From Tomitella cavernea (GTDB lineage: Bacteria; Actinomycetota; Actinomycetes; Mycobacteriales; Mycobacteriaceae), in the NCBI RefSeq assembly GCF_016599145.1, contig NZ_JAENKO010000002.1, forward strand, positions 62,001 through 126,000: DNA of 64,000 nt. Direction: 5' to 3'. Shown piece by piece: positions 30,951 to 50,200 of this stretch (the stretch's first letter is position 1; each line of letters opens with the position of its first letter). The translations under genes were made by a program, and so were the position numbers. The notes below the pieces were generated by a model, which did no database searches, was not told where the DNA came from, and was given only the letters and a program-made list of their open reading frames with translations.

Positions 30951-31952
30951 ATGACCGAACCCGACGCGGGCGTACTCGTCGAGGACATCACCAAGTCCTT
31001 CGGCGATGTACACGCGTTGCGCGGCATCAGCTTCCGCGCGGAGCGCGGCGAAGTCCTGGGGGTTCTGGGTCCCAACGGCGCCGGCAAGTCCACCGCCGTG
31101 AACGTGCTGTCGACGCTGATCAAGCCGACGAGCGGCCGCGCCGTCGTCGCAGGCCACGATGTGGTGTCCGATGCCGCCGGGGTGCGCCGTTCGATCATGC
31201 TCACGGGCCAGTCGGCGGCGTTGGACAACCGGCTCACCGCCCGCGAGAACCTCATGCTGTTCGGGCGCCTCATGGGGCTGGACAAGAAGTCCGCGGTCCG
31301 CAGGGCGAACGCGCTGCTCGAGGAGTTCGATCTGGTTTACGCGGCCAATCGACGCGTGGGGCAGTATTCCGGCGGGATGCGTCGGCGCATCGATATCGCC
31401 TGCGGGCTGGTGGTGCGCCCGGAAGTCGTGTTCCTCGACGAGCCGACCACCGGCCTGGACCCGCGCAGCCGGCAGGCGGTGTGGGATCTGGTGAGCCGTT
31501 TGCGCGATCAAGGCATCACCACGATCCTCACGACGCAGTACCTCGAAGAGGCCGATGTGCTCAGCGACAACATCATCGTGATCGACAAGGGCACGGTGAT
31601 CGCGGAGGGAACGGCGGACGAGCTCAAAGCCCGCACCGGCAGCAGCTACTGCGAGGTGGTCCCCTTGCATCCGGACGATGTCCCTCGGGTGATCGAGGTT
31701 CTTGACGACTTTCTGCCTCCGCAATCGCGGCCGAATGGCGAGGACGCGCCGACGGCCGTCGCGGTGCCGGCTCCGAAGGGCGCGCAGACATTGGCCGAGG
31801 TCCTGAGGCGACTGGATCTGGCGAGCATCGAACTCAATGACATCGCGCTGCGGCGCCCGTCGCTGGACGAGGTTTTCCTCAATCTCACCAAACGCATTCC
31901 GGAAACCGCGGAGTCCGACGCTACGGGCCTCGGCGGCGAGGCGGCATCATGA
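30951..31952 (+). CDS. drrA: Daunorubicin-resistance-type ABC transporter ATPase (DrrA-like)
   Basis: A 333-residue ABC ATPase with Walker A GPNGAGKST (about residue 42), signature QYSGGMRRR (about 140), Walker B VVFLDEPTTGLD (about 160) and the DrrA-type C-terminal region ending in PSLDEVFLNLT. It drives the DrrB/DrrC membrane pair, which in mycobacteria exports complex lipids such as phthiocerol dimycocerosates. GGAG precedes the ATG. It is the first of three coupled genes and fits an exporter for the lipid-modified peptide of this island. Confidence 0.88.
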   Translation: MTEPDAGVLVEDITKSFGDVHALRGISFRAERGEVLGVLGPNGAGKSTAVNVLSTLIKPTSGRAVVAGHDVVSDAAGVRRSIMLTGQSAALDNRLTARENLMLFGRLMGLDKKSAVRRANALLEEFDLVYAANRRVGQYSGGMRRRIDIACGLVVRPEVVFLDEPTTGLDPRSRQAVWDLVSRLRDQGITTILTTQYLEEADVLSDNIIVIDKGTVIAEGTADELKARTGSSYCEVVPLHPDDVPRVIEVLDDFLPPQSRPNGEDAPTAVAVPAPKGAQTLAEVLRRLDLASIELNDIALRRPSLDEVFLNLTKRIPETAESDATGLGGEAAS

Positions 31953-32776
31953 CGATCGTCGCCCCCACCGATCCGCCGCGCAGCATCGACCGCGGTTACG
32001 TGGGCCGTCGCCGGCGGCCCACCCCCGACTCCCTGCAGCAGTGGTGGGCACTGAGCTTGCGGCTGATCAAACCTGCACTGCGCAACGGCGAGATCATTTC
32101 GGCGATCATCAGTCCCATCGTCTTCACTGTCGGCTTCTACTTGCCGCTGAAGTTCGTCATGAGTTTCCAGGGCGTCGATTACGCCCAGTTCCTCATGCCT
32201 ATCATCGCGCTGCAGGCACTGTCGTTCACCGCACTGTCTGCTGCGATGAATGCCGCGTTGGACCGCACCGAGGGAATCACCGACCGGTTCAAGACGATGC
32301 CGATCCGTTCCGGCGTACCACTGGCCGCTCGCATGTCGGCGAACCTGTTCCGCCTGGTGGTCTCGTTATCGGTCGCCATTGCGTGCGGATACGTCATCGG
32401 ATTCCGGTTCCACCTGGGATGGACCAACTCCGTCGGCTTCTGCGCGCTGGCACTGCTGGTGGGTTTCGCACTGACAATGGGCGGGGACGCTATCGGCACG
32501 TTGTCGAAGACCCCAGAGGCCACCACACAGGCCCTGACGCTGCCCCAACTGATCCTGGGCATGCTCTCGACGGGGTTCGTCCCCATCACCGGCTTCCCTG
32601 AATGGATACAGCCCTTTGTACGCAACCAGCCGATCTCCGTGATCGCGACAGCCATGCGCGATATGACCTCCGACGGCGTGGACTGGCCCACTCTTTGGCC
32701 GGCCTTGGCATGGTCGTTCGGGGCCCTGCTGGTCTTCGCCCCCATCACGATCTGGGCGAACGGGAGGCGACAGTGA
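31949..32776 (+). CDS. drrB: ABC-2 type transporter membrane subunit (DrrB-like)
   Basis: This 275-residue membrane protein of the ABC-2 type has about six helices, with FLMPIIALQALSFTALSAAMN and the C-terminal PLASTGFVP-like segment LGMLSTGFVPITGFP typical of DrrB/DrrC. The ATG overlaps the drrA stop (ATGA). It pairs with the next gene to form the membrane channel of the exporter. Confidence 0.87.
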   Translation: MTIVAPTDPPRSIDRGYVGRRRRPTPDSLQQWWALSLRLIKPALRNGEIISAIISPIVFTVGFYLPLKFVMSFQGVDYAQFLMPIIALQALSFTALSAAMNAALDRTEGITDRFKTMPIRSGVPLAARMSANLFRLVVSLSVAIACGYVIGFRFHLGWTNSVGFCALALLVGFALTMGGDAIGTLSKTPEATTQALTLPQLILGMLSTGFVPITGFPEWIQPFVRNQPISVIATAMRDMTSDGVDWPTLWPALAWSFGALLVFAPITIWANGRRQ

Positions 32777-33732
32777 GCACGGAACCCGTCATGGTGAACA
32801 GGCGCGCCCGCCACGCCGCCACCGGTCCGGCTGCGCCTGCGGTTGTGCCGACCGGCAACGGGCCCGAACCACCGGCGCGCCCGGCTGCAGACGACGCCTC
32901 CGGTGCGCGCGAACGCGTACTGACGTTCATCGAGCCCGCCCACGCACGTTCCGAGCGTTCGATGAAGGCCTTGGCACTGCACAGCCTGCTGCACGCGCAG
33001 CGGCTGCTGATCCGGTGGTCCCGCGATCCGCTCACCACAGTCCAGGTGCTGTTGTATCCGGGCCTCATGCTGGTGATGTTCAAGATCGTGCTGGGCGATT
33101 CGATCGGGGACGCCACCGGGCAGTCTGCGATCTACGGCCAGGTGGCGATGATGGCGCTGGTCGCTTCCATGGTCGGCTCCATGGCGGGCGCGATGGGCCT
33201 GCAGCTCGAGAGGCGCGAAGGTCTGCTTTCACGGTTCTGGGTGCTGCCCGTGCACCGCGCCGCCAGCCTCGTGGGCCGCCTGCTTGCGGAGACCTGCCGG
33301 ATCCTGATCACCACCGCCGTGATCATCGCCGTGGGGTTCGGCCTGGGATTCCGGTTCCAGAACGGTGTGGGCGCAGCGATAGGAATGTTCTTCGTCCCGC
33401 TGCTATACGGGATAGGGTTCGCGGTCGCGGTCACGGCCGCGGCCGTGTACGGCGGTCGCGCGAAGCTGATCGAATTCATCTCGCTGGTCACATCGCTACT
33501 GATGTTCTTCAACACTGGATTCGTGCCGCTCGTGGCCTATCCGCAGTGGTTGCAGACGGTCGTGGAATACCAGCCGATGAGCTGTGCGGTCGAAGCGATG
33601 CGCTCCCTTGCCCTGGGCACCGAGATGGGCAACAACTTCTGGTACGCGCTGGGCTGGGCGGGCGCGCTGATTTTACTCTTCACGTTCCCTGCCATCCGCG
33701 GTTACCGCCGCGCCGCGCAGCCGGGCGGGTAA
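32773..33732 (+). CDS. drrC: ABC-2 type transporter membrane subunit (DrrC-like)
   Basis: The 319-residue protein is the second ABC-2 membrane subunit: a Pro/Ala-rich cytoplasmic N-terminus of about 75 residues, then about six helices with VQVLLYPGLMLVMFKIVLG and the LLMFFNTGFVPLVAYPQWLQ hallmark near the C-terminus. The GTG start overlaps the drrB stop (GTGA) and has GGGAGG upstream. Together with drrA and drrB it makes a complete heteromeric exporter. Confidence 0.87.
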   Translation: MSTEPVMVNRRARHAATGPAAPAVVPTGNGPEPPARPAADDASGARERVLTFIEPAHARSERSMKALALHSLLHAQRLLIRWSRDPLTTVQVLLYPGLMLVMFKIVLGDSIGDATGQSAIYGQVAMMALVASMVGSMAGAMGLQLERREGLLSRFWVLPVHRAASLVGRLLAETCRILITTAVIIAVGFGLGFRFQNGVGAAIGMFFVPLLYGIGFAVAVTAAAVYGGRAKLIEFISLVTSLLMFFNTGFVPLVAYPQWLQTVVEYQPMSCAVEAMRSLALGTEMGNNFWYALGWAGALILLFTFPAIRGYRRAAQPGG

Positions 33733-34217
33733 ACAGTTCCATTGGCGGGGGATTTCGGGCTGAATGTGTGAGGTCGGGCGTCGATGAGAATGATCTGCAA
33801 CAGCCGGTCCGCCCGATTTAACGTCTCTTCAACATTCTGCGTGCGTTGATGCGTTCGATGAGTCGGCCGTAGCGCAGCAGTGGGTCTCCCCTCGTATCGT
33901 GGAGGTATCGCCTTTGAGGAGATGAACGGCGATGACGAGGAAGTACCTGAAACTCGAAAACAGGCTGGTCAAGGCCGTCAAGCGGTCTGCTTGCGGCTTC
34001 CGGAACACGGAGAACTCCCGCCGCCGGATACGATTCCACTGCACCCGTCGACAGCGGGCTGCCGCACACCAGTTCTAATACTGATAGCCCGCTCAACCTC
34101 GAAGAGCCCCCATACTCCCATAGATGTAACATAGCGAACCTGGGGCGCGGCAGGCTCCACAGCGTGCCGCACGGCCGCAGCCTTGACGGTTTTTATGCAC
34201 AACATCAGGAGTAGCGC
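33733..34217. other. 485-bp gap carrying a transposase remnant
   Basis: Between drrC and the WS/DGAT gene no intact gene is found. Its centre holds a short frame that resembles the tail of an ISL3-type transposase (33932-34078). The flanks show no recognisable insertion-sequence ends. The right part is AT-rich (tagatgtaacatag around 34121-34134) and may carry the promoter of the following genes. Confidence 0.6.
33932..34078 (+). pseudogene. C-terminal remnant of an ISL3-like transposase
   Basis: A 48-codon frame reads ENRLVKAVKRSACGFRN, TENSRRRIR and FHCTRRQRA. From memory this resembles the C-terminal tail of ISL3-family transposases, in which N-x-L-x-K-x-x-K-R followed by G-F-R-N is common. 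The rest of the transposase and its terminal repeats are absent, so it is a decayed fragment. It marks the left edge of the segment with unusual base composition. The identification needs a similarity search. Confidence 0.5.
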
Positions 34218-35636
34218 GTGCAGCAACTCGACCCCACCGATGCCGCGTACGTCCACCTGGAGCACGGGGCTCTACCGCTGCAGATCGTCGCCGTGTTCGT
34301 ATTCGAGTCCGCGCGGGCAGAGACGGACGACGCAGCGGCGACACGTGCGCTGACGGCCCGCCTCGCACACCGGGCGGCGATCATGCCGCAGCTACGTCGC
34401 CGGCTCCGCCGCGTCCCGTTTGACCTGGACTACCCGTACTGGATCGAAGACCAATCCTTCCGGCCGGCGCGGCACATCCACGCGCGCAATGCGGGCGGCG
34501 CAGACTGGGAGTATCTGCGTCACCGTCTCGAACGCCTTGCCACCACGCAATTGGACCTCGACGCCCCGCCATGGGAGCTCCATGTGGATACGGGACTTCA
34601 CAACATCGACGGCGCGGAGTATGCCACCGCCATCACGCTGAAGATGCATCACGCGCTGGGCGACGGCTTGTTCAGTGTCTCAGTGCTACGCGACTTGTTG
34701 GGAACAGCCGGCCCGGACGGAGCGGGGGACGCACCTCGCACTGACTCTTCCAGCACTAACGCTTCACGCCGTCACCTCCTGCGGTCCGCACTGCGCCGTC
34801 AGCCGGAGCAATTGGCACGACTGGCCCGCGGGGCGAAAGACATCGCCGCGGCATCACGCACTGTTGCACGCCTCGATGCCGAGGGGGCAATCACCCTCCC
34901 CCAGCACAAACGCCCGCGCACACGCTTCAACCACAAGCCTCGGCCCACCCGCATGTTCGACGCGCTCTCCGTCTCCGTACTCCAGATCCGCGCAGCAAAG
35001 GCGGCGGTACCGGACGTCACCGTCAACGATTTTCTGCTGACCATGATCTCGCGCGCGATGGAGCTGTATCTCTCCGATCACGGCGAACCGATTCCTTCGA
35101 ACCTCGCCGCACTGGTACCCATGTCTACCCGCGGGAAGATCGACAAGGCCTCGGCCAACCAGTTCGACGCGCTCGTCGTCGATCTCCATAACGACGAACC
35201 CGATCTGCATCGGCGTTGCATCGCCATCAGCAACAGTGTCCGCACTGACAAGTGCCGGGACCTCAATGCGGCGGTTCAGCGCTCACGATCGCTACTGCAA
35301 TACCTCCCGTCCACCATGCTGGCGGTCACTTCGCTGATAAATCGACACTGGCCGGACATCGGAACGCAAGTAGGCTTATCGAATACGATGATCACAAACG
35401 TGCGGCGCGGTGCCGATGATTTGACCCTCGACGGCGGCCGGGTCGTGTCGAGCTATGGACTGCCGGCGTTGGATTCGAACACCGCCCTTAGCCACGGGAT
35501 CTACACAATCGGCGACTCCCTCACCATATGTTTCGTCGCCGACCGCGACGCCGTGCCCGACGCTGCCGCCTACAAGTCCTCTCTCCAATACGCCTACGAA
35601 GAGACAACTCGGGCGTTGACGCACGTCGGTTCCTGA
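34218..35636 (+). CDS. WS/DGAT (wax ester synthase/diacylglycerol acyltransferase) family acyltransferase
   Basis: The 472-residue enzyme begins with the family-typical LDPTDAAYVHLE and has the catalytic HHxxxDG motif as H144-H-A-L-G-D-G150, plus the conserved P-L-W-like PPWELHV segment and the NDFLL stretch (about residue 270). WS/DGATs transfer acyl groups from acyl-CoA to alcohols or glycerol; relatives (PapA-type proteins) acylate surface glycolipids and lipopeptides. The GTG start has AGGAG upstream. It is 57 bases upstream of the first PP-loop gene and likely co-transcribed; acylation of the NRPS product is plausible. Confidence 0.87.
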   Translation: MQQLDPTDAAYVHLEHGALPLQIVAVFVFESARAETDDAAATRALTARLAHRAAIMPQLRRRLRRVPFDLDYPYWIEDQSFRPARHIHARNAGGADWEYLRHRLERLATTQLDLDAPPWELHVDTGLHNIDGAEYATAITLKMHHALGDGLFSVSVLRDLLGTAGPDGAGDAPRTDSSSTNASRRHLLRSALRRQPEQLARLARGAKDIAAASRTVARLDAEGAITLPQHKRPRTRFNHKPRPTRMFDALSVSVLQIRAAKAAVPDVTVNDFLLTMISRAMELYLSDHGEPIPSNLAALVPMSTRGKIDKASANQFDALVVDLHNDEPDLHRRCIAISNSVRTDKCRDLNAAVQRSRSLLQYLPSTMLAVTSLINRHWPDIGTQVGLSNTMITNVRRGADDLTLDGGRVVSSYGLPALDSNTALSHGIYTIGDSLTICFVADRDAVPDAAAYKSSLQYAYEETTRALTHVGS

Positions 35637-35692
35637 CCGATCCACCTCGATACAATCGCCCTCCTGCTCATACCGTCAACACGGAGTCACCA

Positions 35693-36880
35693 ATGACCGC
35701 AGAGACCTTCACCGTCAATGTTTTAGACCGTCCCGATCACGAGGCTGCGGCAGAATTTTCGTGGGGCGATAAGATCTACACGATCGAGACGAGCGCAAAC
35801 GTCACGCTTCGCAACACTGCGACCGCATGGCTGCCCCCGGCCACGATCATGGCGATGAAAAAAGATCTTCCGCTGCACATTGACTCGACTGTCGACCCTA
35901 AAACACTCAAGGGCGCCAACGAAGCACAACAGCTACTCCACAGTTGGTGGCCAGAGGAATTGCATGAAATTAATATCGACGCAACAGCCAATACGCCGTC
36001 CCCCAAAAGCAGCCGCGGGATCGGCTGCTTTTTCAGCGGAGGACTCGATTCCTTCTATTCGGCAATAACAAACGCGCCAAAGATTACGCACCTAATCTTC
36101 GTGCACGGATTTGATATTTTCCTAAACAGTACAGAACATTACAATTCCGCATTGGACGCCATGCGCGCTACAGCGGAGGAAATGGGTAAGACCCTGATCG
36201 AAGTCAGGACAAATATCGTCCACACGGTTGGGCACGGTCGCGATTGGATGTTGGCACATGGCGCCGCCATGGCGCATGTGGCACTACTTCTGTCCGACCA
36301 CCTGAACAGCGCAATAATACCGGCATCACATTACGTAGATAATATCGTCCCCCATGGTTCGCATCCAGATCTTGACCCACTTTGGTCAAGCACGTCTTTG
36401 AGCTTTGTATACGATGGAATCGAAGCAAACCGCGCAGAAAAGGCATTACGCGCGTCTACGAGCCGCACCGCGCTCAAACATTTGAGAGTTTGCTTCTGGA
36501 ATCGCAGCGACATTCAGAATTGCGGCGAGTGCGAAAAATGTGTTCGCACGGCTGTGAATATGCGAATAGCCGGCGCTTCCGACAAGTTTACGGCTATCCC
36601 GACAACGGATTTGATAAAATCGATTTCTCGCGTAGAATTCAAACGCGACAACGAAAAATACTTCCTGGCAGAGAACATTCGCGCCCTGGAACAGTCCGAT
36701 CGCGCAGATCCCGATCTCTTAAACGCTCTTGTGACGGCAAGCAGTCGATCCACAAGTCAAAAGGCACGGGCACTTCTATGGTCGAACTATATTTACGCGA
36801 AAATGACCTGCATTCTAATCGGGCAAAAATCACGGGGCAGCCTTTCAGGTCTTCATCAACGGCTAGGCAAAGTCCAATAA
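35693..36880 (+). CDS. PP-loop ATPase-like protein, paralogue 1 (function unknown)
   Basis: A 395-residue soluble protein with an N-terminal beta-rich part (about residues 1-105; AWLPPATIMAMKK), then a PP-loop ATP pyrophosphatase core with S115-G-G-L-D-S120, followed by HLIFVHGFDIF and LIEVRTN strands, a HGSHPDLDPLW motif (about 221) and a cysteine triad C277-G-E-C-E-K-C283 expected to bind Zn. PP-loop enzymes (QueC, AsnB, ThiI, TilS type) adenylate a carboxyl or carbonyl group for amide, nitrile or thio transfer. Two paralogues follow. Its GC content is far below that of the window, indicating horizontal transfer. ACGGAG precedes the ATG. The substrate is unknown. Confidence 0.75.
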   Translation: MTAETFTVNVLDRPDHEAAAEFSWGDKIYTIETSANVTLRNTATAWLPPATIMAMKKDLPLHIDSTVDPKTLKGANEAQQLLHSWWPEELHEINIDATANTPSPKSSRGIGCFFSGGLDSFYSAITNAPKITHLIFVHGFDIFLNSTEHYNSALDAMRATAEEMGKTLIEVRTNIVHTVGHGRDWMLAHGAAMAHVALLLSDHLNSAIIPASHYVDNIVPHGSHPDLDPLWSSTSLSFVYDGIEANRAEKALRASTSRTALKHLRVCFWNRSDIQNCGECEKCVRTAVNMRIAGASDKFTAIPTTDLIKSISRVEFKRDNEKYFLAENIRALEQSDRADPDLLNALVTASSRSTSQKARALLWSNYIYAKMTCILIGQKSRGSLSGLHQRLGKVQ

Positions 36881-36899
36881 TACATCACACGGAGAAGCA

Positions 36900-38078
36900 A
36901 TGAACCAGCGCACGATAGTCACCCCCCTGGAATGCCAGTCTGGCTCTGCTGCCGCTCACTTCGACTGCCCCGACGGAGAGTTCACCGTCAACGTTTCTGC
37001 AAACGTCGAGCTCGCCGGCGATGCGACAGCTTGGCTGCCTCCTGCGATTTTTCTATCTATGAAGACCTGCACTCCCCTATATGTTTCCGGGCCATTAGAT
37101 GAGCAGATCTGGCGGAACGCAAAGGACGCGCAACATGTTATCAATTCATGGTGGCCTCACTCCATGCAGACTGTGGATGTAGATTCGGCATCTACGGCGA
37201 CTCCAACCCCGGGACACGATCGTGGAGTCGGCTGTTTTTTCAGTGGCGGACTCGACTCATTTTATTCAGCGGTCAAAAATAGTCCGGCGATTACGCATCT
37301 GATATTTGTTCACGGTTTTGACATATTCCTGAACAGCCACAGCAAACGGCATTACGATAAGACAATATTCGAGATACGACACGCTGCCGCTACCATGGGA
37401 AAGCAGCTGATCGAAGTGCGTACGGATTTAAGAACGAAGTTTCATCGCCTCGGTCGATGGGATGTCGGCTACGGGCTCGCGCACGTCGCGCTGTTGCTTT
37501 CGGAGCATCTGCACACGGTATACATACCTGCTTCCGCACACTGCGGAGACGCGCCCCCGCGAGCAACGCATCACGAGTTGGATTATTTGTGGTCCAGTGG
37601 CGCGGTCCAGATAATTCATGATGGCCTTGAGGCAGACCGCGTACAGAAGGCTGAGACCGTAAAGAGCAGCCCAGCGGCCATGGAGAGCATTCGGGTGTGC
37701 TTCTGGAACCGCGCCGACCGACTCAACTGCGGAGAATGCGAGAAATGCGTTCGTACAGCGATCAATTTACGGATTGCAGGTGCTCTACCACTCTGTACCG
37801 CCCTGCCCCCGATTAACCCAATACGAGCGCTAACAAGAATCCCCGCCGATGACCCAAGCACCGTATATTTCCTTAAGGAGAACCTCGGAGCACTACAAAA
37901 TTCCGACCGCGACGATCCCGAACTCGAGAGCGCGCTCGAATCGGCGCTGCACCGCTCGGCTCTGCAGAAGGCGACGGCACGCTCGTGGTACATCTTTACC
38001 GTGGTCAAAGTCCTGGGGCTGACGCTACGGGAGAAGGCCTACCAAGCCATCATTGCCCGAAGGGGCGATACCGATTGA
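36900..38078 (+). CDS. PP-loop ATPase-like protein, paralogue 2 (function unknown)
   Basis: A 392-residue paralogue of the upstream gene. All landmarks are kept: GVGCFFSGGLDSFYS, THLIFVHGFDIFLNS, LIEVRTDL, THHELDYLWSS and NCGECEKCVRT. The N-terminal domain is more diverged (AWLPPAIFLSMKT kept). It starts 19 bases after paralogue 1 ends, with an almost identical ribosome-binding context (ACGGAGAAGCA before ATG), so the pair arose by duplication and is in one operon. GC content is also low. It ends at a strong bidirectional hairpin. Confidence 0.75.
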   Translation: MNQRTIVTPLECQSGSAAAHFDCPDGEFTVNVSANVELAGDATAWLPPAIFLSMKTCTPLYVSGPLDEQIWRNAKDAQHVINSWWPHSMQTVDVDSASTATPTPGHDRGVGCFFSGGLDSFYSAVKNSPAITHLIFVHGFDIFLNSHSKRHYDKTIFEIRHAAATMGKQLIEVRTDLRTKFHRLGRWDVGYGLAHVALLLSEHLHTVYIPASAHCGDAPPRATHHELDYLWSSGAVQIIHDGLEADRVQKAETVKSSPAAMESIRVCFWNRADRLNCGECEKCVRTAINLRIAGALPLCTALPPINPIRALTRIPADDPSTVYFLKENLGALQNSDRDDPELESALESALHRSALQKATARSWYIFTVVKVLGLTLREKAYQAIIARRGDTD

Positions 38079-38085
38079 TCCCATC

Positions 38086-38150: not shown

Positions 38151-39317
38151 CTACTTTTGTGACAGCTGCCCGGTGCCCATTTTCCAAAGAAAGCCGGCGA
38201 ACTGAGGTGCCAAGCCGGCCAACTGGCGAGCATGGAAGATCTGGTTCTGCCACGTGGGCCTGTCGATCGCGTCGCGTAACGCACGTTCCATCTCGGCGTC
38301 CCGGTATCCGAAATCGTCCATCGCCTTCAGATTCTCCACTGCACCGTGCTTTCCCGGCTTATTGATATACATCCGGTTGTACACATCATATGGAATATCA
38401 GCAGGCAGGGTTGCGCACTTTCCCTCTGCACCCGCAATCTTGATGTTCATCATCGTGCGAATGCACTTCTCACAGTGCCCGCAGTTGTAATCATTGTCTT
38501 TGTTCCACCAGCAGACTCGGAGGTTGTTCATCGCCGGCTCGCTGTCGGCGAACGCCGCGACCTTCATCGGCCTGTTCGCCTCGTTGCCATCGTGCTCGAT
38601 CTCGAGACCGCGGGACCCCCAATGCTTGTCGAGATCCGGGTGCGTGGCATACGGCTCCAGCTCGCCCTCGATGCGGTTCGACGGAAGATACAACTTGCCA
38701 ATATGGTCCGTTAGCAGAAGCGCGACATGCGCGAGGAGCGACCCGTGCGAATGCGATTCCCAATCAAGCCCCAGCAGCGCATGAACCTGCCGCAGATTCG
38801 TTCGGACCTCAATGAGGGGTTTTCCCAGATCCTCAGCCGCCTTGCGGAGGGTGCGCAGCGTGCGCTCGGCCAAGTCTTCATTGTCCAGCGGAATATCGAA
38901 CCCGTGGATGAATATGAGGTGCGTGATCTCGTCGATGTGTTTGACGGTGGAATAGAACGAATCGACCCCGCCTGAGAAGAAGCATCCGACCCCTCTGCCA
39001 CCGGCGAGGGTCTCATTCGTGGTTTCTTGTTGCAGAATGGCAGTGGCGTGCATCTGTGCCGGATACCAGTCGCTCATGATCCGCTGGACCTCCTCGGCAC
39101 CGGTGAGCGCCACTGAGTCCAGGGGCCCGTCGATGTCCAGAGCGGCATTCTGGCGCATCGCCGCCAACAGCCCCGGCGCAAGCCACGGCGTCGCGCCGGA
39201 GGCGAGTGAGACGTTCGCCGACGTGCGAACCGTGAAGCTCTTCTTACCTACTGAGAAACGTGCCGATACCTCGTTCCCCGAAGGCGGGTTCACGCGGACG
39301 GCGAGTGTGGAGGACAT
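38151..39317 (-). CDS. PP-loop ATPase-like protein, paralogue 3 (function unknown)
   Basis: The 388-residue third paralogue, on the opposite strand, keeps SGGVDSFYS (about residue 116), THLIFIHGFDI, LIEVRTNLR, ATHPDLDKHWGS and NCGHCEKCIRTM. It is more divergent from copies 1 and 2 than they are from each other, and its GC content is closer to the window average. Convergent orientation and divergence suggest an older copy or a separate acquisition. Upstream (39318-39494) there is no gene. The catalytic chemistry is expected to be ATP-pyrophosphatase type; the substrate is unknown. Confidence 0.75.
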   Translation of the reverse strand: MSSTLAVRVNPPSGNEVSARFSVGKKSFTVRTSANVSLASGATPWLAPGLLAAMRQNAALDIDGPLDSVALTGAEEVQRIMSDWYPAQMHATAILQQETTNETLAGGRGVGCFFSGGVDSFYSTVKHIDEITHLIFIHGFDIPLDNEDLAERTLRTLRKAAEDLGKPLIEVRTNLRQVHALLGLDWESHSHGSLLAHVALLLTDHIGKLYLPSNRIEGELEPYATHPDLDKHWGSRGLEIEHDGNEANRPMKVAAFADSEPAMNNLRVCWWNKDNDYNCGHCEKCIRTMMNIKIAGAEGKCATLPADIPYDVYNRMYINKPGKHGAVENLKAMDDFGYRDAEMERALRDAIDRPTWQNQIFHARQLAGLAPQFAGFLWKMGTGQLSQK

Positions 39318-39494: not shown

Positions 39495-40649
39495 TCATCT
39501 CAGCCACACGAAGTCCGGATTCGGCCGCCGGCCGCGTTGACGTGCGCGGCGGGCTGCTATGCGCTGCGTAAATCGTTCCGCCATGCGGATCATCCATCCG
39601 GACAGGGGGCGTCCGGACACCTGGTAGCAGCCGAGGTAGTCTGTGATCTCCCGGCTGAAGGATTTCTTGAACTTGCCGATCCGGTGGAACGGGTGCGTCG
39701 GATCGTGAATGTGTGCGGTGGATGGTGTGACGTCCATGTCGTACCGCGTACAGCCCCTCTCATGCGCCCACTTCATGCACTCCCACTGCAGTGCGTATCC
39801 GGCTCCGGACGTGCCCAGCCCCGGATGCTCCGCGTCCCCCGGCGCCTTGCGGACCGATCCCCCCACCATGCACATGGCGTTCTCGCCGAATACGACCGCG
39901 AAAGCGGCCGCCACGACCCGCCCCCCATGCCACGCCATGAACATCTGCCCTGCACCGTCCGCCGAGAGTGTGCGGTAGATATCGGTCAGCACATGGTCCG
40001 GCGGTGTGCTGAAACGTTCATGCCGCGTCTGCTCGACCAGGCGGTTCATCGTCACGCAGTTCTCGGACGTCGGCTCGACCCGGCGCACCTGCACGCCCTC
40101 GCGCACCGAACGGCGCAGCGCATGCCGCGTCTGCTTTTTGAACCGCGCATAGACCTGCTGCTGTGTGCCGGAGAGATCCACCACGGCGATATGGTCCGAC
40201 AGCCACGACGGCACCCGCACCAGACCGCTGTCACGCAGGAATCGGGCGGCTCCTTCATCCTCGCGCAGCTGGGGGCGGACCCGAACCGCCGAGACCCCGT
40301 GCTCGGCCGCGAAATCAGCAATCGCACACGCCGCATCGACCAGCTCCACCGCATCCGACGCGGGTGGGCCTATGAGCATCCACATCGCACCGAGCGGCCG
40401 TACGTCGACGCGGAACCCCGTCACAGCGTGTCCGCCGACGATGAGACGGACCGCCTGATACCCCTGCAACGCCATGCATGCGATGTTGACGCTGCCCCGG
40501 TATGCGTTGCCTTCATCCGGCGCGGCCAATAGTAGGTCATCCCACCGTGCAACCTCGTCCGAATCAGCGAAGCGGACCTGCACCGGCGGGCCGGGCGACT
40601 CCTTCGCGCCAAGGCGATGTGCACGCGCCCTCCACAGCGATCCCGCCAC
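39495..40649 (-). CDS. FemAB/GNAT-type aminoacyl transferase-like protein
   Basis: This 384-residue protein shows the double-GNAT organisation of FemX/FemAB (peptidoglycan bridge) transferases: an N-terminal GNAT-like half (residues about 20-175; LIGPPASDAVELVDAACAIADFA) and a C-terminal half with QTRHALRRSVREGVQVRRVE and the terminal GCTRYDMDV...HPFHRIGKFKKSFS, the most conserved Fem segment. FemAB proteins use aminoacyl-tRNA to add residues to a peptide or lipid-linked acceptor. I use the GTG at 40647-40649 with GGGAGG upstream; another GTG at 40670 is possible. It probably extends or caps the peptide of this island; exopolysaccharide clusters often carry related genes. Confidence 0.72.
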   Translation of the reverse strand: MAGSLWRARAHRLGAKESPGPPVQVRFADSDEVARWDDLLLAAPDEGNAYRGSVNIACMALQGYQAVRLIVGGHAVTGFRVDVRPLGAMWMLIGPPASDAVELVDAACAIADFAAEHGVSAVRVRPQLREDEGAARFLRDSGLVRVPSWLSDHIAVVDLSGTQQQVYARFKKQTRHALRRSVREGVQVRRVEPTSENCVTMNRLVEQTRHERFSTPPDHVLTDIYRTLSADGAGQMFMAWHGGRVVAAAFAVVFGENAMCMVGGSVRKAPGDAEHPGLGTSGAGYALQWECMKWAHERGCTRYDMDVTPSTAHIHDPTHPFHRIGKFKKSFSREITDYLGCYQVSGRPLSGWMIRMAERFTQRIAARRARQRGRRPNPDFVWLR

Positions 40650-41032
40650 GGCCCCTCCCTTCCGACTCACAGCACACCCCGTGCCAGTCAGCGGGTTCAC
40701 ACAACGATGACTGGACGCGTGTCCGAAGCACCCTCGGTACCGTAACCGATCAAGTGTCGGCAACCAGCGCTCGGCGGCCCGGCTCGGCGTCGCACGCCAT
40801 CTCACCCGACTCCACGCACCCAAGTTACGAAGGCCACAGACACCCCAAGCAGGGCGTCCGCGTTGGTACTATACGTCTGAAACAGGTCGGATTCAGTTTT
40901 CAACCGCATGACACGTTCTCCCGGGCGGGAGCATCCGCACCGACGCACGGGCTGCAGGGACGCGGAGGGCACGGAAAGGCGATAGACTGGCGATGGCTTC
41001 ACACCAGGAGCAGCGGTTTGGGGAGGCCGGTC
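40650..41032. promoter_or_regulatory. Divergent region between FemAB-like gene and alkB
   Basis: No gene is convincing in this 383-bp gap. A candidate -10 box for alkB, TAGACT, is at 40983-40988, and a very good ribosome-binding site (GGGGAGG) precedes the ATG at 41033. A more AT-rich stretch at 40860-40910 (tactatacg) may hold another promoter. The promoter of the minus-strand FemAB-like gene was not resolved. Confidence 0.35.
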
Positions 41033-44613: not shown

Positions 44614-46299
44614 GTGTGCGCGATTCTCGGCTGTTTCGACCTGCCCACCGGAGACGACCTGGCCGCACTGCGCCAACGCGCCGTCGGAATGTCGAGCAGG
44701 CAGCGGCATCGCGGCCCCGACTGGAGCGGCGTCGCCGTACGCGACGGAGCGGTGCTTGCGCACGAGCGCCTCGCCATCGTCGATCCCGGCAGCGGCGCAC
44801 AGCCCATGACCTCGCGCGACGGCACACTGACGCTCGCCGTCAACGGCGAAATCTACAACCACCGCTCGCTGCGTGAGCGCCTGGACTACGAGTTCACCAC
44901 CGCATCGGACAGCGAGGTGATCAATGCTCTCTACGCTGCGTGCCGCGACACGTCTTTCGTCGGCCGGCTCAACGGCCTCTTCGCGTTCGCCCTCTGGGAT
45001 TCCGAGGCCGGACGCGCGCTGATCGCCCGCGATCCAATGGGCGTCTGCCCGCTGTATTGGGGGCGCGACTCCGTGGGCCGTCTCTGGACCGCCTCGGAGA
45101 TGAAGGCGCTGGTAGGCGTTTGCGACGACGTGGAGGTCTTCCCACCGGGGCACGTCTACGACAGTGAGATCGGCCTGGTCCGGTTCTACGCACCGGAATG
45201 GCGCGATTACGACGCCGTCGCGGGCTCGGATACCGTGCCGACGGATCTGCGCTCGGGCTTCGAAGCCGCCGTGCACCGCCAGCTCATGACGGACGTCCCC
45301 TACGGGGTCCTCCTCTCCGGCGGGCTCGACTCCTCACTCGTGGCCGCGTGTGCGGCCAAGTTCGCTCGCGACCGCATCGAGGATGACGACCGCAGCCGCG
45401 CCTGGTGGCCGCGACTGCATTCTTTCGCCATCGGGCTCACCGGGTCGCCGGACCTCGCCGCCGCCCGCGTCGCGGCCGAGGCGATCGACACCGAACATCA
45501 CGAATTCACCTACACCTTCGACGAAGGGCTCGACGCACTGCCGGAAGTGATCCGACACATAGAGACCTACGATGTGACGACCATCCGCGCATCGACCCCC
45601 ATGTTCCTTCTGGCCCGCCGCATCAAGGCGATGGGCGTGAAGATGGTTCTCTCCGGAGAGGGCTCGGACGAGATCTTCGGCGGCTACCTGTACTTCCACA
45701 AGGCGCCGTCCACACGCGAGTTCCACGAGGAGACCGTCCGCAAGCTCGACGCCCTGCACAATTACGACTGCCTCCGCGCGAACAAGGCGATGATGGCCTG
45801 GGGTGTCGAAGCACGCGTGCCGTTTCTGGACCTCGAGTTCCTCGACACGGCGATGAGTATGGATCCTTCCCGCAAGACCATCGCCGACGGGCGCATGGAG
45901 AAACACGCCTTGCGTGAGGCTTTCGACGGCGCGCTGCCGGACTCCATCCTGTGGCGGCAGAAGGAGCAGTTCTCCGACGGGGTCGGATACGGCTGGATCG
46001 ACGGACTCAAGGACCACGCGGAGAAAGCGGTCTCCGATGCCGACTTCGCCGCCGCGGCAACGCGGTTCCCCCACAACCCGCCGCGGTCGAAAGAGGCGTA
46101 TCTGTACCGCGAGATCTTCGAGCGACATTTTCCGGGCGCCGCCTGCGCCCGCACGGTGCCGGGCGGCGAGTCCATCGCCTGCTCCACCCCGGAGGCGCTG
46201 GCGTGGGATCCGGCCTTTGCCGACGCCGCGGACCCGTCCGGGCGTGCCGTGCTCGGCGTCCACGGCGGCTACACCCACGCCGGCAGAGTCCCGGGCTGA
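44614..46299 (+). CDS. asnB: Glutamine-hydrolysing asparagine synthetase (AsnB-type)
   Basis: The 561-residue enzyme starts with the catalytic Cys2 (GTG start, then TGC), followed by a class II amidotransferase domain (RHRGPD, NGEIYNH near residue 75, ERLAIVD) and a C-terminal synthetase domain with PP-loop SGGLDSS (about residue 234) and GEGSDEIFGGY (about 350). It makes an amide from a carboxylate, glutamine and ATP. GGAGAGGAG lies upstream. Its presence inside an NRPS island and 5 kb from the three PP-loop paralogues suggests amidation of a peptide or precursor, but a house-keeping asparagine supply role is possible. Confidence 0.9.
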   Translation: MCAILGCFDLPTGDDLAALRQRAVGMSSRQRHRGPDWSGVAVRDGAVLAHERLAIVDPGSGAQPMTSRDGTLTLAVNGEIYNHRSLRERLDYEFTTASDSEVINALYAACRDTSFVGRLNGLFAFALWDSEAGRALIARDPMGVCPLYWGRDSVGRLWTASEMKALVGVCDDVEVFPPGHVYDSEIGLVRFYAPEWRDYDAVAGSDTVPTDLRSGFEAAVHRQLMTDVPYGVLLSGGLDSSLVAACAAKFARDRIEDDDRSRAWWPRLHSFAIGLTGSPDLAAARVAAEAIDTEHHEFTYTFDEGLDALPEVIRHIETYDVTTIRASTPMFLLARRIKAMGVKMVLSGEGSDEIFGGYLYFHKAPSTREFHEETVRKLDALHNYDCLRANKAMMAWGVEARVPFLDLEFLDTAMSMDPSRKTIADGRMEKHALREAFDGALPDSILWRQKEQFSDGVGYGWIDGLKDHAEKAVSDADFAAAATRFPHNPPRSKEAYLYREIFERHFPGAACARTVPGGESIACSTPEALAWDPAFADAADPSGRAVLGVHGGYTHAGRVPG

Positions 46300-46311: not shown

Positions 46312-47280
46312 TCACTGCGCCCGGCGCAGCCTCCGGCGCACGATGTGCATGACGTGCCAGGTCTCCGGCAGCCACGACAAGTACATGAACGTATGGAACC
46401 CACCGCGGTATTCATGCACGCGCACGTCGACGTCCAGCCGCCGTGCCAGTTCGCTCAGACGCCGGCAGTCCGCGATGAACACCTCGTGCGTACCGATGAA
46501 CACGTCGACGGGAGGGAGCCCCAGCAAGTCTCCGTCGATAGGACTCGCCCCCACCCCGCACCGCCCCGCAGAGGCCGTCCACTCGCGCCCCAGGTGGCGC
46601 AGCACTTCCACGTCCAGAATCGGATCCTTGCCGGCCACGTCCTTGATCTCGGGGTTGTCCAGCTCGAGATCCAGCCACGGGGAGAACAGCAGCAGGTTCG
46701 CGGGCGCGGCGATCCCACCGTCGCGGATCGCTTGCGCCAGGGCGTAGGCCATGCCCCCGCCCGACGATTCCCCCGCCAGCACCACATCCGCCGCGTCGCA
46801 GTCCTCGAGCACGCGTCGGTACAACTGCAGCATCCGCTCCAGTGCCTCCGGATGCGTACCACTCGGAGCAAGCGTGTACGTAGGCACCAGCACCCGAACG
46901 TCCCCGTTGCGCGCCAGCGCGGACACCAGCATCCACTGCTGCGGCTGCAGCGGCGTGGTGAATCCGCCGCCATGCAGGAAAATCACCGTCCGCGCAGGGG
47001 ACGTGCGCCCCCGCACCGTCACGGTGTACACGGGAAGCCCGCCCCATTGCTCCATGTCCACGCGGCAGCGCCGAAGCGTCGAGCGCGGCGGTGGCGCGCC
47101 TCCCCTGGCCTGCGCCTCGTCGCGCCTGCGCAACGCCTCATCCAGGGTCAATGCCCGGTCGGCTCGCCGCAGCCACCAGGTGGACAGACGCATCGGCACG
47201 CTCGGCCACCGCGCAGCCCACACCTTGCGCGCGCCGGAGCCGACCACACCGTCCGGGACGTCCGCCCGCTCCGCATTCAC
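46312..47280 (-). CDS. HSL-family alpha/beta hydrolase, coupled to NRPS gene
   Basis: This 322-residue esterase has the HSL hallmarks: oxyanion motif FLHGGGF (about residue 105), nucleophile GESSGGG (about 162) and C-terminal catalytic His in RGGFHTFMY. Its GTG start overlaps the NRPS stop codon (GTGA), so it is translated together with that gene, and no signal peptide is seen. As the NRPS lacks a thioesterase domain, this enzyme is the best candidate for hydrolytic or ester-forming release of the chain or for editing. The inference rests on context, not on sequence proof. Confidence 0.83.
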   Translation of the reverse strand: MNAERADVPDGVVGSGARKVWAARWPSVPMRLSTWWLRRADRALTLDEALRRRDEAQARGGAPPPRSTLRRCRVDMEQWGGLPVYTVTVRGRTSPARTVIFLHGGGFTTPLQPQQWMLVSALARNGDVRVLVPTYTLAPSGTHPEALERMLQLYRRVLEDCDAADVVLAGESSGGGMAYALAQAIRDGGIAAPANLLLFSPWLDLELDNPEIKDVAGKDPILDVEVLRHLGREWTASAGRCGVGASPIDGDLLGLPPVDVFIGTHEVFIADCRRLSELARRLDVDVRVHEYRGGFHTFMYLSWLPETWHVMHIVRRRLRRAQ

Positions 47281-50200
47281 CGGGCGCCGGCCTCCGCGAT
47301 CGCCGAAAGCGCCTGCTGCCACAGGCCGAGCAGCTCACCGGCCTCGCTCTCATCGAGTACCCCGGGGGCCACCGACACGTAAGCGAGGTACTCGGGACCC
47401 TCCGCGGTTTCGGCGATCATCGACTGGATGTCCACTACCGCCTGCGCCGGCATCCGGCTGGGGTTGTCCACCCCGAGATCGTTGTCCTCGAAATCCGGAA
47501 GCCAGCCCAGGCCGCGCACCTCCTCTGGAATCTCCGAGGATTCCACGCTGCCGATGTAGTTGAAAACCACCTGAGGCTCACCATGCTGCTGAAGCTCCGG
47601 AGCCGTGCGGGGGTTGAGATACCGCAAAAGCCCATACCCGATACCTGACCCCGGCACACACTCGAGTTGCTCGGCGGTCTTCTCGACCAACTTCACCGTG
47701 GCGTCGGCCTTGCGTCCCGTACTGCCGGAGAAGACCTCGTCCACGTCCACCTCGGACAGGTCGACGCGGGCCGGGTACATCGCCGTGAACCATCCGACCG
47801 TTCGGGACAGATCCGCACCCGGCACAGCCGCCTCGTCACGCCCATGCCCCTCCAGCGTCATCAATGCGGAAGGTTCTTCTATACCGCGGTGGCGACGCCA
47901 CTGCACAAGCGCAGCAGACAGTGCGGCCGTCGCCAGCCGCCCCGGGTCGGTCCCGAACACGTTCCGCGCCGAATCGAGCAGCCCGCGAGTGACAGCAGTA
48001 CTCAGGCGCACTTCAGTACGCTGCAACGATTCGACCAGGTCGCGGCTCAGATCCAACGGCCGCCGACCCAGCAAGGGATCCGCGCCCGCGAGGGTGCGAC
48101 GCCAGAACTCCAGTTCCCGTTCGCGCTCCGGGTCCTGCGCCGCCTCGACGAGCCGGTGCGACCAGGCGCGCATCGAGGTGCCGACCGGCTGCAACTCCGC
48201 CGCCTGCCCGTGCGCGACCTGCGCGCCTGCTATGGCGAAATCCTGAACAAGGATCCGCCACGATACGGAATCGACGAGTAGATGGTGCGGGACGATGACG
48301 AGCCGGCCCGCCGTTTCCGGGTCGTCGGGCACCAACCACACGCACTGCAGCAGCGTTCCAGCAGCCGTGTCCAACCGGTTCAGTGCGCGTGTGAACTCAT
48401 CCCCGGCCACCCGTGCGTAACCGGCGCTGCCCGGATACTGCCTACCGGTCAACTCGACCTTGCGGAGGACATCCCGGACATCGAGCCCCCCGACGGGCCG
48501 CACGTACAGGGAGGGGTCGCCGTCCTCATCGAGGAGTACCGCGCGCAGCATGTCGTGCGTGTCGACCACGGCCTGCAGGGTCTCGACCACGTGCGTCTCG
48601 CTGATCCCTGCCGGAAGCGTGAGCACCATCGGCATGGTGAAACGATCGAAGTCGCCGCCCCGCTCGACCATCTTCGCCACCACGGGCACCAGCGGAGCCG
48701 CGCCGACTCCGCCGCCGGGCAATTCTTCGGCGACACCGATATCCCGACTGGTTGCAGCCGCCACGGAGGCGAGACCCGCGACGGTCCTGCGCTCGAACAC
48801 GTCGCGCGCAGTGAAGTGCACGCCCGCAGCACGCGCCCGCGAGACGAGCCGGATCGACACGATGCTGTCGCCGCCGAGGTCGAAGAAGGAATCGTCGACA
48901 CCGATCTCGTCTGTGCCGAGAACCTCTGCGAACACGGCCGCGATCGCGCGCTCGGTGTCGGTGGACGGCGCCCGGTACTCCGCGCCCGCAGCGAACACGG
49001 GTTTGGGCAGCGCACGCCGGTCGACCTTGCCGCTGGTGTTCAGCGGAAGGTACGGCAGCGTCATCACCAGCGCGGGGACCATGTATTCCGGCAGCTCGCG
49101 CGCCGCGAATTCCCGCAGCTCCCGCTCGTCCACAGTTGCGTCGCCGACGGACACGTATGCGACCAGCCGTGTGGCGGCGGCGCCCTCGGCACCGTCCGAG
49201 CCGCCGCCCTCGTGGGCGACGGCCGCCGCTTGGCCCACGCGCGGGTGCGAGGCGAGCACGGCCTCGATCTCACCGAGCTCGACGCGCTGACCGCGCACCT
49301 TGACCTGGAAATCGGCACGCCCGAGGTACTCCAACGATCCGGCACGGGTCCACCGCACCAGGTCCCCGGTGCGGTACATTCGCGCACCCGCCCCGGCGAA
49401 CGGATCGGCGACGAAACGCTCGGCGGTCAGATCGGCCCGGGCGGCATAGCCGCGGGCCAATTGCCCACCGGCGAGATACAACTCGCCCACCGCCCCGATA
49501 GGCGCCGGCTCGAGCCGGCCGTCGAGCACGTACGCCCGCGTGTTCCACACCGGCTCGCCGATCGGCGCGGTGTTGCCCGCCGTATCGGCGGGCGCGGTCG
49601 CGGTCACCGAGTTGATCGTGACCTCCGTGGGGCCGTACAGGTTGACCACGCTCGCCGCACTGACGGCCCGCACCCTCTCGACCAGCGCCGAGGTCAGTGC
49701 CTCGCCGCCGGCGAAGACCACCCGGAGCGTGGCGAGGGCGTCGGCGTCGGCCTCGTCGAGGAACAGCGCCAACAGCGAAGGAACGAACTGCACCGCCGTC
49801 ACCGATTCACGGGCCACCACGGCCGCCATCCCGGCCGGGTCGCGGTGCCCGTCGTGCTCGAGCACGACCAAGCGCGCACCGACCACCGGCGGCAGCAGCA
49901 GCTCCCACACTGACGCGTCGAAGGTCGCCGGCGTCTTGTGCAACAGCACGTCGTCCGCAGAGAAGCCGTGCTCGCTTTCCATCCACGACAGTTGGTTGAC
50001 GATCGCCCGGTGCTCGATCGCGACGCCCTTCGGACGCCCCGTCGACCCGGATGTGAACAGCACGTATGCGGCGTCCTGCGCCATGAGCGGACGGGAACGC
50101 TCGTCCGGCCGGATCGGATCGGCGGACAGCCCGCCCAGCTCGAGCTCGTCGAGCCGTACGGTCTGCGCACCGGCCTGCTCGAAGACGCTCGCGTCCGCGG

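Follow-up and report, generated by a model that had tools for sequence, protein, structure and literature searches.

Exchangeable surface loci such as the O-antigen loci, for which escape from phages or rivals has been proposed, and the lysogenic-conversion (moron) genes of prophages are among the closest described counterparts of the locus reported here. In a Salmonella study, low-GC segments of O-antigen loci are explained by transfer, and recombination is placed in the flanking genes that such loci share (PMC3715488); locus exchange is also described in PMC7305143. The window analyzed in the present work is a stretch of 64,000 nucleotides from Tomitella cavernea (contig NZ_JAENKO010000002.1, positions 62,001 to 126,000, forward strand). 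It contains an AT-rich tract that covers two adjacent genes on the plus strand, PP1 (35693..36880; 395 residues; GC 51%) and PP2 (36900..38078; 392 residues; GC 56%), coding for PP-loop proteins of the same family. The structure of PP1, predicted with AlphaFold2, has a QueC fold.

QueC uses ATP to turn a carboxylate into an amide and a nitrile, and Cap9 makes a protein conjugate (PMC13329287 and PMC13279940). PMC13329287 also gives motifs YxQxHxxE, VPxRN and YPDC for QueC and C(x)19CGxCxxRR for QatC, the PP-loop protein of the qatABCD defence system.

On balance, we favor the view that a variable module, whose exchanged core is the AT-rich tract, lies within a locus for a non-ribosomal peptide synthetase (NRPS) and an ABC exporter, and that this module tailors the exported NRPS product or a surface molecule. 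The module consists of a WS/DGAT acyltransferase and of paralogues in tandem, all belonging to an unnamed type of PP-loop protein with the QueC fold. A dip in composition would by itself be ordinary. Less ordinary is that this one pinpoints a segment swapped by recombination in a non-ribosomal peptide locus.

Composition of the AT-rich tract

GC content falls to 51.3% at 36-37 kb and to 54.8% at 37-38 kb, against about 69% around. Among 200 non-overlapping 1-kb windows of the genome (contig C36, 20-60 and 62-166 kb, together with parts of five further contigs; mean 69.9%, standard deviation 3.7), the four lowest values are those of 36-37, 37-38, 35-36 and 38-39 kb, with a minimum z of -5.1. 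The sharp drop that a first reading, made from the sequence only, had placed at 35640-38080 is therefore real. The deviant codon use that it had noticed is also borne out. Codon adaptation is 0.30 for PP1 and 0.33 for PP2, against 0.63-0.79 for the reference genes, the exporter ATPase and the asparagine synthase-like gene. The reference was made of eight window genes, the gene under test being left out; one candidate with 3 stops was dropped. GC content at third codon positions (GC3) is 0.57 in PP1 and about 0.59-0.61 in PP2, compared with 0.85-0.92 in ordinary genes of the window (asparagine synthase, NRPS, genes at 13-25 kb). AAA, described as common by the sequence-only reading, makes up 63% of the lysine codons of PP1 but merely 29% of those of PP2.

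The drop has shoulders and extends from about 32 to 40 kb. GC3 is 0.76 for the acyltransferase, 0.75 for the third paralogue PP3, whose overall GC is likewise low (59.5%), and 0.76 for the following FemAB/GNAT-type gene. Relative to their own flanks, PP1 and PP2 show GC deficits of -0.18 and -0.14, the largest deficit outside Tomitella being -0.10. Low GC as a property of the whole family was considered and rejected, as copies in other hosts are close to the GC content of their host.

Exchange of the core, seen by comparison with a sister species

The genus set comprises five genomes, namely G000 (this genome), G001, G002 (T. biformata), G003 (the sister species) and G004. Alignment with G003 delimits a replaced segment, block B (35950..37900), running from inside PP1 to inside PP2 with sharp edges on both sides. 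Identity is 97-99% over the 300 bases that precede it (88-100% in 25-base steps), drops to 0.42-0.74 per 150 bases in the interior and returns to 99-100% from 37,900 onward. G003 has one extra PP gene in the block. At the protein level, no 40-residue step of block B exceeds 80% identity to any copy of G003 or T. biformata. Over whole genes, synonymous divergence (dS) from G003, calculated by the NG86 method and near saturation above 1, is 1.42 for PP1 and 1.41 for PP2. The corresponding values are 0.20 for the acyltransferase (34218..35636, plus strand), 0.011 for PP3 (38151..39317, minus strand) and 0.022 for the FemAB/GNAT-type gene (39495..40670, minus strand). PP1 and PP2 are under purifying selection, with a ratio of nonsynonymous to synonymous divergence (dN/dS) of 0.19 for both. 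Because the edges seen with G003 lie inside PP1 and PP2, the family is patchily distributed and relatives are borne by phages, we conclude that the AT-rich core was exchanged horizontally. The comparison involves one strain pair, one member being a draft assembly, and the change may have occurred in either genome.

A second diverged segment, block A (31880..33700), covers both permease genes of the exporter. Identity is 97-100% in the 500 bases ahead of 31,880 and 49-85% per 100 bases within the block. The left edge is sharp, whereas the right side of the block merges into an insert at 33.7-34.1 kb. Permease 1 has a dS of 1.02, against 0.14 for the neighboring ATPase.

On the NRPS side, from 38,000 to 64,000 and over about 22 kb beyond the window (to 86 kb in window numbering), each 1-kb window is 96.3-100% identical to G003. 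This run of ~48 kb, which includes the NRPS gene, is the longest of its kind seen between the two genomes and may reflect a recent exchange between the species. Other near-completely aligned windows are 80.6-99.0% identical, with shorter runs of 96-99% at about -13 to -6 kb and 26-31 kb. In five regions on other contigs, the longest pieces have 90.3-93.8% identity to G003 and shorter ones up to 97.5%.

Organization of the locus

The module follows the three exporter genes (30.9-33.7 kb), all on the plus strand. The DrrA-like ATPase (30951..31952) matches Pfam ABC_tran (E 7e-31) and, under the cut-off, DrrA1-3_C (E 7.9e-5); its amino acid identity is 95% in G003 and 77% in T. biformata. Permease 1 (31949..32776; ABC2_membrane_3, E 1.8e-15) lies inside block A. 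Permease 2 (32602..33732; ABC2_membrane, E 4.8e-17) is 67% identical in G003 and probably starts downstream of 32,602. Then come the acyltransferase (WS_DGAT_cat, E 4.3e-31; WS_DGAT_C, E 1.1e-9; 90% identity in G003), PP1, PP2, PP3 (388 residues, in another clade than PP1 and PP2 in protein trees) and the FemAB/GNAT-type protein (Acetyltransf_6, E 4.9e-14; FemAB, E 8.5e-11).

A fatty-acid-desaturase-type protein and two lipases separate this last gene from an asparagine synthase-like amidotransferase (44614..46299, plus strand; Asn_synthase, E 5.1e-86), which is 97% identical in G003 and 73% in T. biformata, the matches in G001 and G004 reaching merely 31-42%. An alpha/beta hydrolase (46312..47334, minus strand; Abhydrolase_3) has a 44% identical counterpart beside the NRPS of T. 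biformata. The NRPS gene itself (47277..63998, minus strand) reaches the end of the window and contains 5 AMP-binding, 7 condensation and 5 carrier stretches, summed over two halves. By Pfam-type annotation, without phage profiles being run on the window, the PP copies stand among non-phage genes.

A PP-loop family without a Pfam model

PP1, PP2 and PP3 belong to a PP-loop family that lacks a Pfam model, with a QueC core and an overall architecture apparently nearest to QatC. No Pfam family was matched by the three window proteins at E 0.1 or by five further Tomitella copies at E 0.01. Among 41 members at E 0.01, DUF6395 is touched by 4 and QueC (PF06508) by 2. Weak profile matches point to QatC and asparagine synthase, and the core matched four QatC-type sequences with 92% probability, two of these being above the QatC cut-off. 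The window proteins remain far below this cut-off (NCBIfam NF041925, 280 bits), with 17.7 bits for PP1, 13.9 for PP3 and no match for PP2. In our literature searches, no paper on this family was found.

The AlphaFold2 model of PP1 has a mean predicted local distance difference test score of 94.4. With VIA-align, QatC is the best match (Z 14.0 over 292 residues, root mean square deviation 5.2 Å), ahead of QueC (Z 12.7 over 184 residues and 12.5 over 179) and Cap9 (10.9). Foldseek ranked QueC first, with no PDB match below E 0.001, and searching the sequences of solved structures produced no significant match. A viral structure library gave three matches below 0.001, two of them named 7-cyano-7-deazaguanine synthase and one unnamed.

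All 41 members contain CxxCxxC, and SGGxDS is found in 30, the three window proteins included. The preceding cysteine is spaced by C(x)9 in 31/41, again including the window proteins, while the exact zinc motif C(x)8CxxCxxC occurs in 2/41.

Distribution, neighbors and phage-borne relatives

Of 397 genomes sampled from the order, this one counted, 8 have the family, which is thus patchy. Within the genus set, PP genes co-occur with close relatives of the exporter and of the asparagine synthase-like protein, and with the WS/DGAT acyltransferase, in three genomes of five (G000, G002 and G003). No PP gene was found in G001 (81% complete) or G004. G003 has the same gene arrangement, with four PP genes (GC3 0.58-0.74) instead of three. 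T. biformata also carries four, with GC3 of 0.56 for two of them and host-like values of 0.83 and 0.91 for the other two. There, WS/DGAT occurs twice, once with the host-like pair and once with the AT-rich pair, and an NRPS end also adjoins the PP array. The second homologue of the acyltransferase is split into two pieces among the PP copies (L103:11437-12344) and is probably a broken gene.

G003 has a fifth PP gene, located within a prophage in the order minor tail proteins, endolysin, PP, regulator, integrase. The prophage spans ~43 kb (L193:10666 to L102:13602; G003:C1 about 3,234,666-3,277,601), and the PP gene stands 3.4 kb from its right end. Its ends are marked by an 86-bp direct repeat (94%), the copies being about 42.9 kb apart and the left one overlapping tRNA-Lys. 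The prophage protein, which scores below the PF06508 gathering cut-off (17.7 of 22 bits), is nested in the clade of Tomitella PP1 and PP2.

Four viral contigs, representing three distinct viruses by gene content, also carry PP genes, and tail or endolysin genes were found near PP in the three contigs scanned. In one viral contig, a Wzy_C (O-antigen ligase) gene adjoins the PP gene and is followed by a tail fibre gene (L160:2805-4223). The four phage copies do not form one clade (approximately unbiased test, p 2.1e-11). One of the protein trees was built from 59 of 101 open reading frame (ORF) hits and 2 viral rows, leaving out L020, L024 and L105 (duplicates) and hits below 140 bits. The family spans actinobacteria to other phyla and also travels in phages.

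Neighboring genes were clustered over 73 loci and 1074 ORFs, with L020, L024, L105, L104, L064, L081, L085 and loci shorter than 4.5 kb left out; class names were checked on representatives. Counts refer to 48 non-haloarchaeal loci, not deduplicated and without matched control loci. A polysaccharide pyruvyl transferase lies within about 2.1 kb (centre to centre) of the PP gene in 8 of these loci, two of which (L034 and L037) have near-identical PP proteins. A member of the glycosyltransferase cluster is found anywhere in the stretch in 11/48 loci, and one of the flippase cluster in 4/48. Some relatives are solitary or in tandem, with no polysaccharide-type neighbors. In one Nitrospirales genome, four PP-loop genes follow one another, interrupted by one other gene (L029:9692-17784), and a further one is apparently broken into three pieces. 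In 8 of 22 haloarchaeal loci, a FemAB/GNAT-type cluster is found at a median of ~4 kb from a distant PP-loop homologue (for example L086:12815-13822; the class was checked on L086 only), in parallel to the FemAB gene beside PP3.

A proposed role in surface modification

The following scheme may be proposed from these data. The low GC of the tract would be the imprint of repeated import of the module, not yet ameliorated, with phages as a possible carrier. Judging from its fold, the PP-loop protein would bind ATP at the SGGxDS loop and activate a carboxylate as an adenylate. An amide, or a bond of a related kind, could in this way be made on the NRPS product or on some other surface molecule, ahead of transport by the neighboring exporter. 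Swapping of alleles would change the surface, and the pay-off might be escape from phages or rivals. The phage-borne relatives suggest, without proving it, that PP genes change the bacterial surface. Amide formation by the PP proteins is conceivable on the basis of the fold.

Several observations weigh against this scheme. As to the chemistry, each of the three QueC catalytic motifs is found in 0/41 members and the exact SGGxDS is missing in 11/41. Members therefore need not all share one activity, and the proposed chemistry amounts to guesswork based on the fold. The exporter and the acyltransferase are what points to a surface location of the NRPS product. Of the 48 loci, 30 lack all three polysaccharide gene clusters over the stretch that was fetched (no matched control), and the copies of Williamsia, G009 and G058 also stand without polysaccharide genes. 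As to import, the prophage copy of G003 has a GC3 of 0.78, not 0.57, so that carriage by a phage does not in itself explain AT-richness. Searched at distant sensitivity, the DNA of 35,900-37,900 had no match in plasmids or phages and no donor was found, and neither PP2 nor the G003 prophage copy was matched among 50,697 phage records. At the protein level, plasmids gave distant matches, in 16 records and with at most 31% identity. Finally, evidence of exchange comes from a single strain pair including a draft assembly, and low GC does not always go with divergence, as shown by PP3, which is AT-rich yet 99.5% identical in nucleotides to its G003 counterpart.

A wider idea, which we regard as tentative and rather doubtful, is that this undescribed family of QueC/QatC architecture would constitute a swappable surface-modification toolkit of bacteria and phages. 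It would activate a carboxylate with ATP and make amides on exported lipopeptides or glycans, and its alleles would be passed on through recombination and prophages, so that phage receptors keep changing. If true, QueC-fold chemistry would gain a third arena besides tRNA and DNA bases and protein N-termini.

Alternative explanations

Old vertical genes might have drifted to AT through weak use or through silencing by Lsr2, with no need for import. PMC6584129 describes Lsr2 as binding AT-rich DNA and broadly repressing expression in Streptomyces. An Lsr2 gene is present in the genome, and sister paralogues of T. biformata range in GC3 from 0.91 to 0.56. Drift leaves unaccounted for, however, a dS of 1.4 inside the core against 0.01-0.2 beside it, as well as edges within two genes, and the dN/dS of 0.19 is not relaxed. 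We therefore consider it unlikely, though it fares better than the explanations below. Lsr2 may silence the AT-rich tract, and could do so on imported DNA too; such silencing fits with import and is no substitute for it.

The main functional rival is a role of the PP-loop genes in phage defence, Qat-like or type IV CBASS-like, instead of surface modification. QatC is the closest structural match over the chain and gives weak profile matches, and the family is patchy and phage-carried. Yet the QatC cut-off is far missed (17.7 bits of 280) and the QatC motif is found in 0/41 members. When PADLOC was run on nine neighbors, only the ABC ATPase was matched, by ATPase-type models such as mad3, and FemAB gave none. 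No Qat or CBASS partner was seen among these nine genes, partners around relatives not being searched for. Some relatives also adjoin polysaccharide genes. Defence seems improbable to us, somewhat more so than drift.

One could assume, in line with the recent horizontal acquisition inferred by the sequence-only reading, that this strain gained PP1 and PP2 once, carried by a transposon out of an AT-rich donor. Low GC, foreign codon use and the close-by insert at 33.7-34.1 kb favor this view. In G003, however, family members stand in the same order and have similarly low GC, T. biformata has an AT-rich pair, and in trees the copies branch amid sequences of Tomitella and of other actinobacteria. 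The insert (33740..34115), read as a transposase remnant, has no or few aligned bases in G003. As it is absent there while the PP genes are present, it represents a separate event. Its transposase nature is unconfirmed, Pfam giving no match for the frames 33,931-34,077 or 33,818-34,132 (minus strand). In protein trees, the Tomitella copies are nested in a clade of actinobacterial and viral sequences, so that a distant AT-rich donor is not visible. The same reading would have given way to equal synonymous GC in vertically descended orthologues. GC3 is indeed nearly the same in G003 (0.57 and 0.58 for PP1; 0.59 and 0.67 for PP2), but the descent does not look vertical. What survives of the claim is horizontal exchange of the core, in view of the edges, the patchiness and the phage relatives; a recent acquisition of the genes themselves is very unlikely, given the AT-rich arrays of G003 and T. 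biformata.

Unequal crossing-over among tandem paralogues could by itself have produced the differing arrays of G000 and G003, in keeping with three versus four paralogues and with edges inside PP genes, but we give it equally little credence because reshuffling alone would leave near-identical pieces, whereas the PP1/PP2 interior, taken in 40-residue steps, does not exceed 80% identity to any copy of G003 or T. biformata.

Comparison with known systems

We thus retain, as the favored view, an exchanged module in an NRPS/exporter locus. As an enzyme family, the window proteins resemble QueC (PF06508) by their PP-loop core, their SGGxDS loop and a four-cysteine zinc-type region. They differ from it by an extra N-terminal part of ~100 residues and C-terminal helices, by the absence of the catalytic motifs, by a cysteine spacing that is mostly C(x)9 and not C(x)8, and by the lack of a Pfam match. 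QatC of qatABCD defence is the closer structural match and also matches the core profile. A common layout of N-terminal extension, QueC core and C-terminal extension is conceivable, the match running over 292 residues but at a root mean square deviation of 5.2 Å. The differences are that the QatC model cut-off is not reached, the motif is missing, and PADLOC identified no QatA or QatD among nine window neighbors.

A resemblance to moron genes comes from the G003 prophage, where PP is flanked by tail genes on one side and the integrase on the other, and from viral contigs, where tail or endolysin genes lie close to PP. The window copies differ in belonging to an NRPS locus instead of a prophage, and a role in conversion would be putative. 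The gtfB-drrC region of mycobacterial glycopeptidolipid loci is presumably another relevant comparison.

With O-antigen and capsule loci, the locus shares an exchangeable low-GC core, its transfer, and recombination that falls in genes held in common or next to the core. The pattern expected of exchangeable surface loci, a diverged core with near-identical flanks between close strains, is seen here in one strain pair. The difference is that an NRPS and an exporter are involved, in an actinobacterium, and that the variable enzymes are PP-loop paralogues. If the surface reading holds, QueC-fold enzymes would gain a concrete class of substrates open to testing, and O-antigen switching would have a parallel among actinobacteria.

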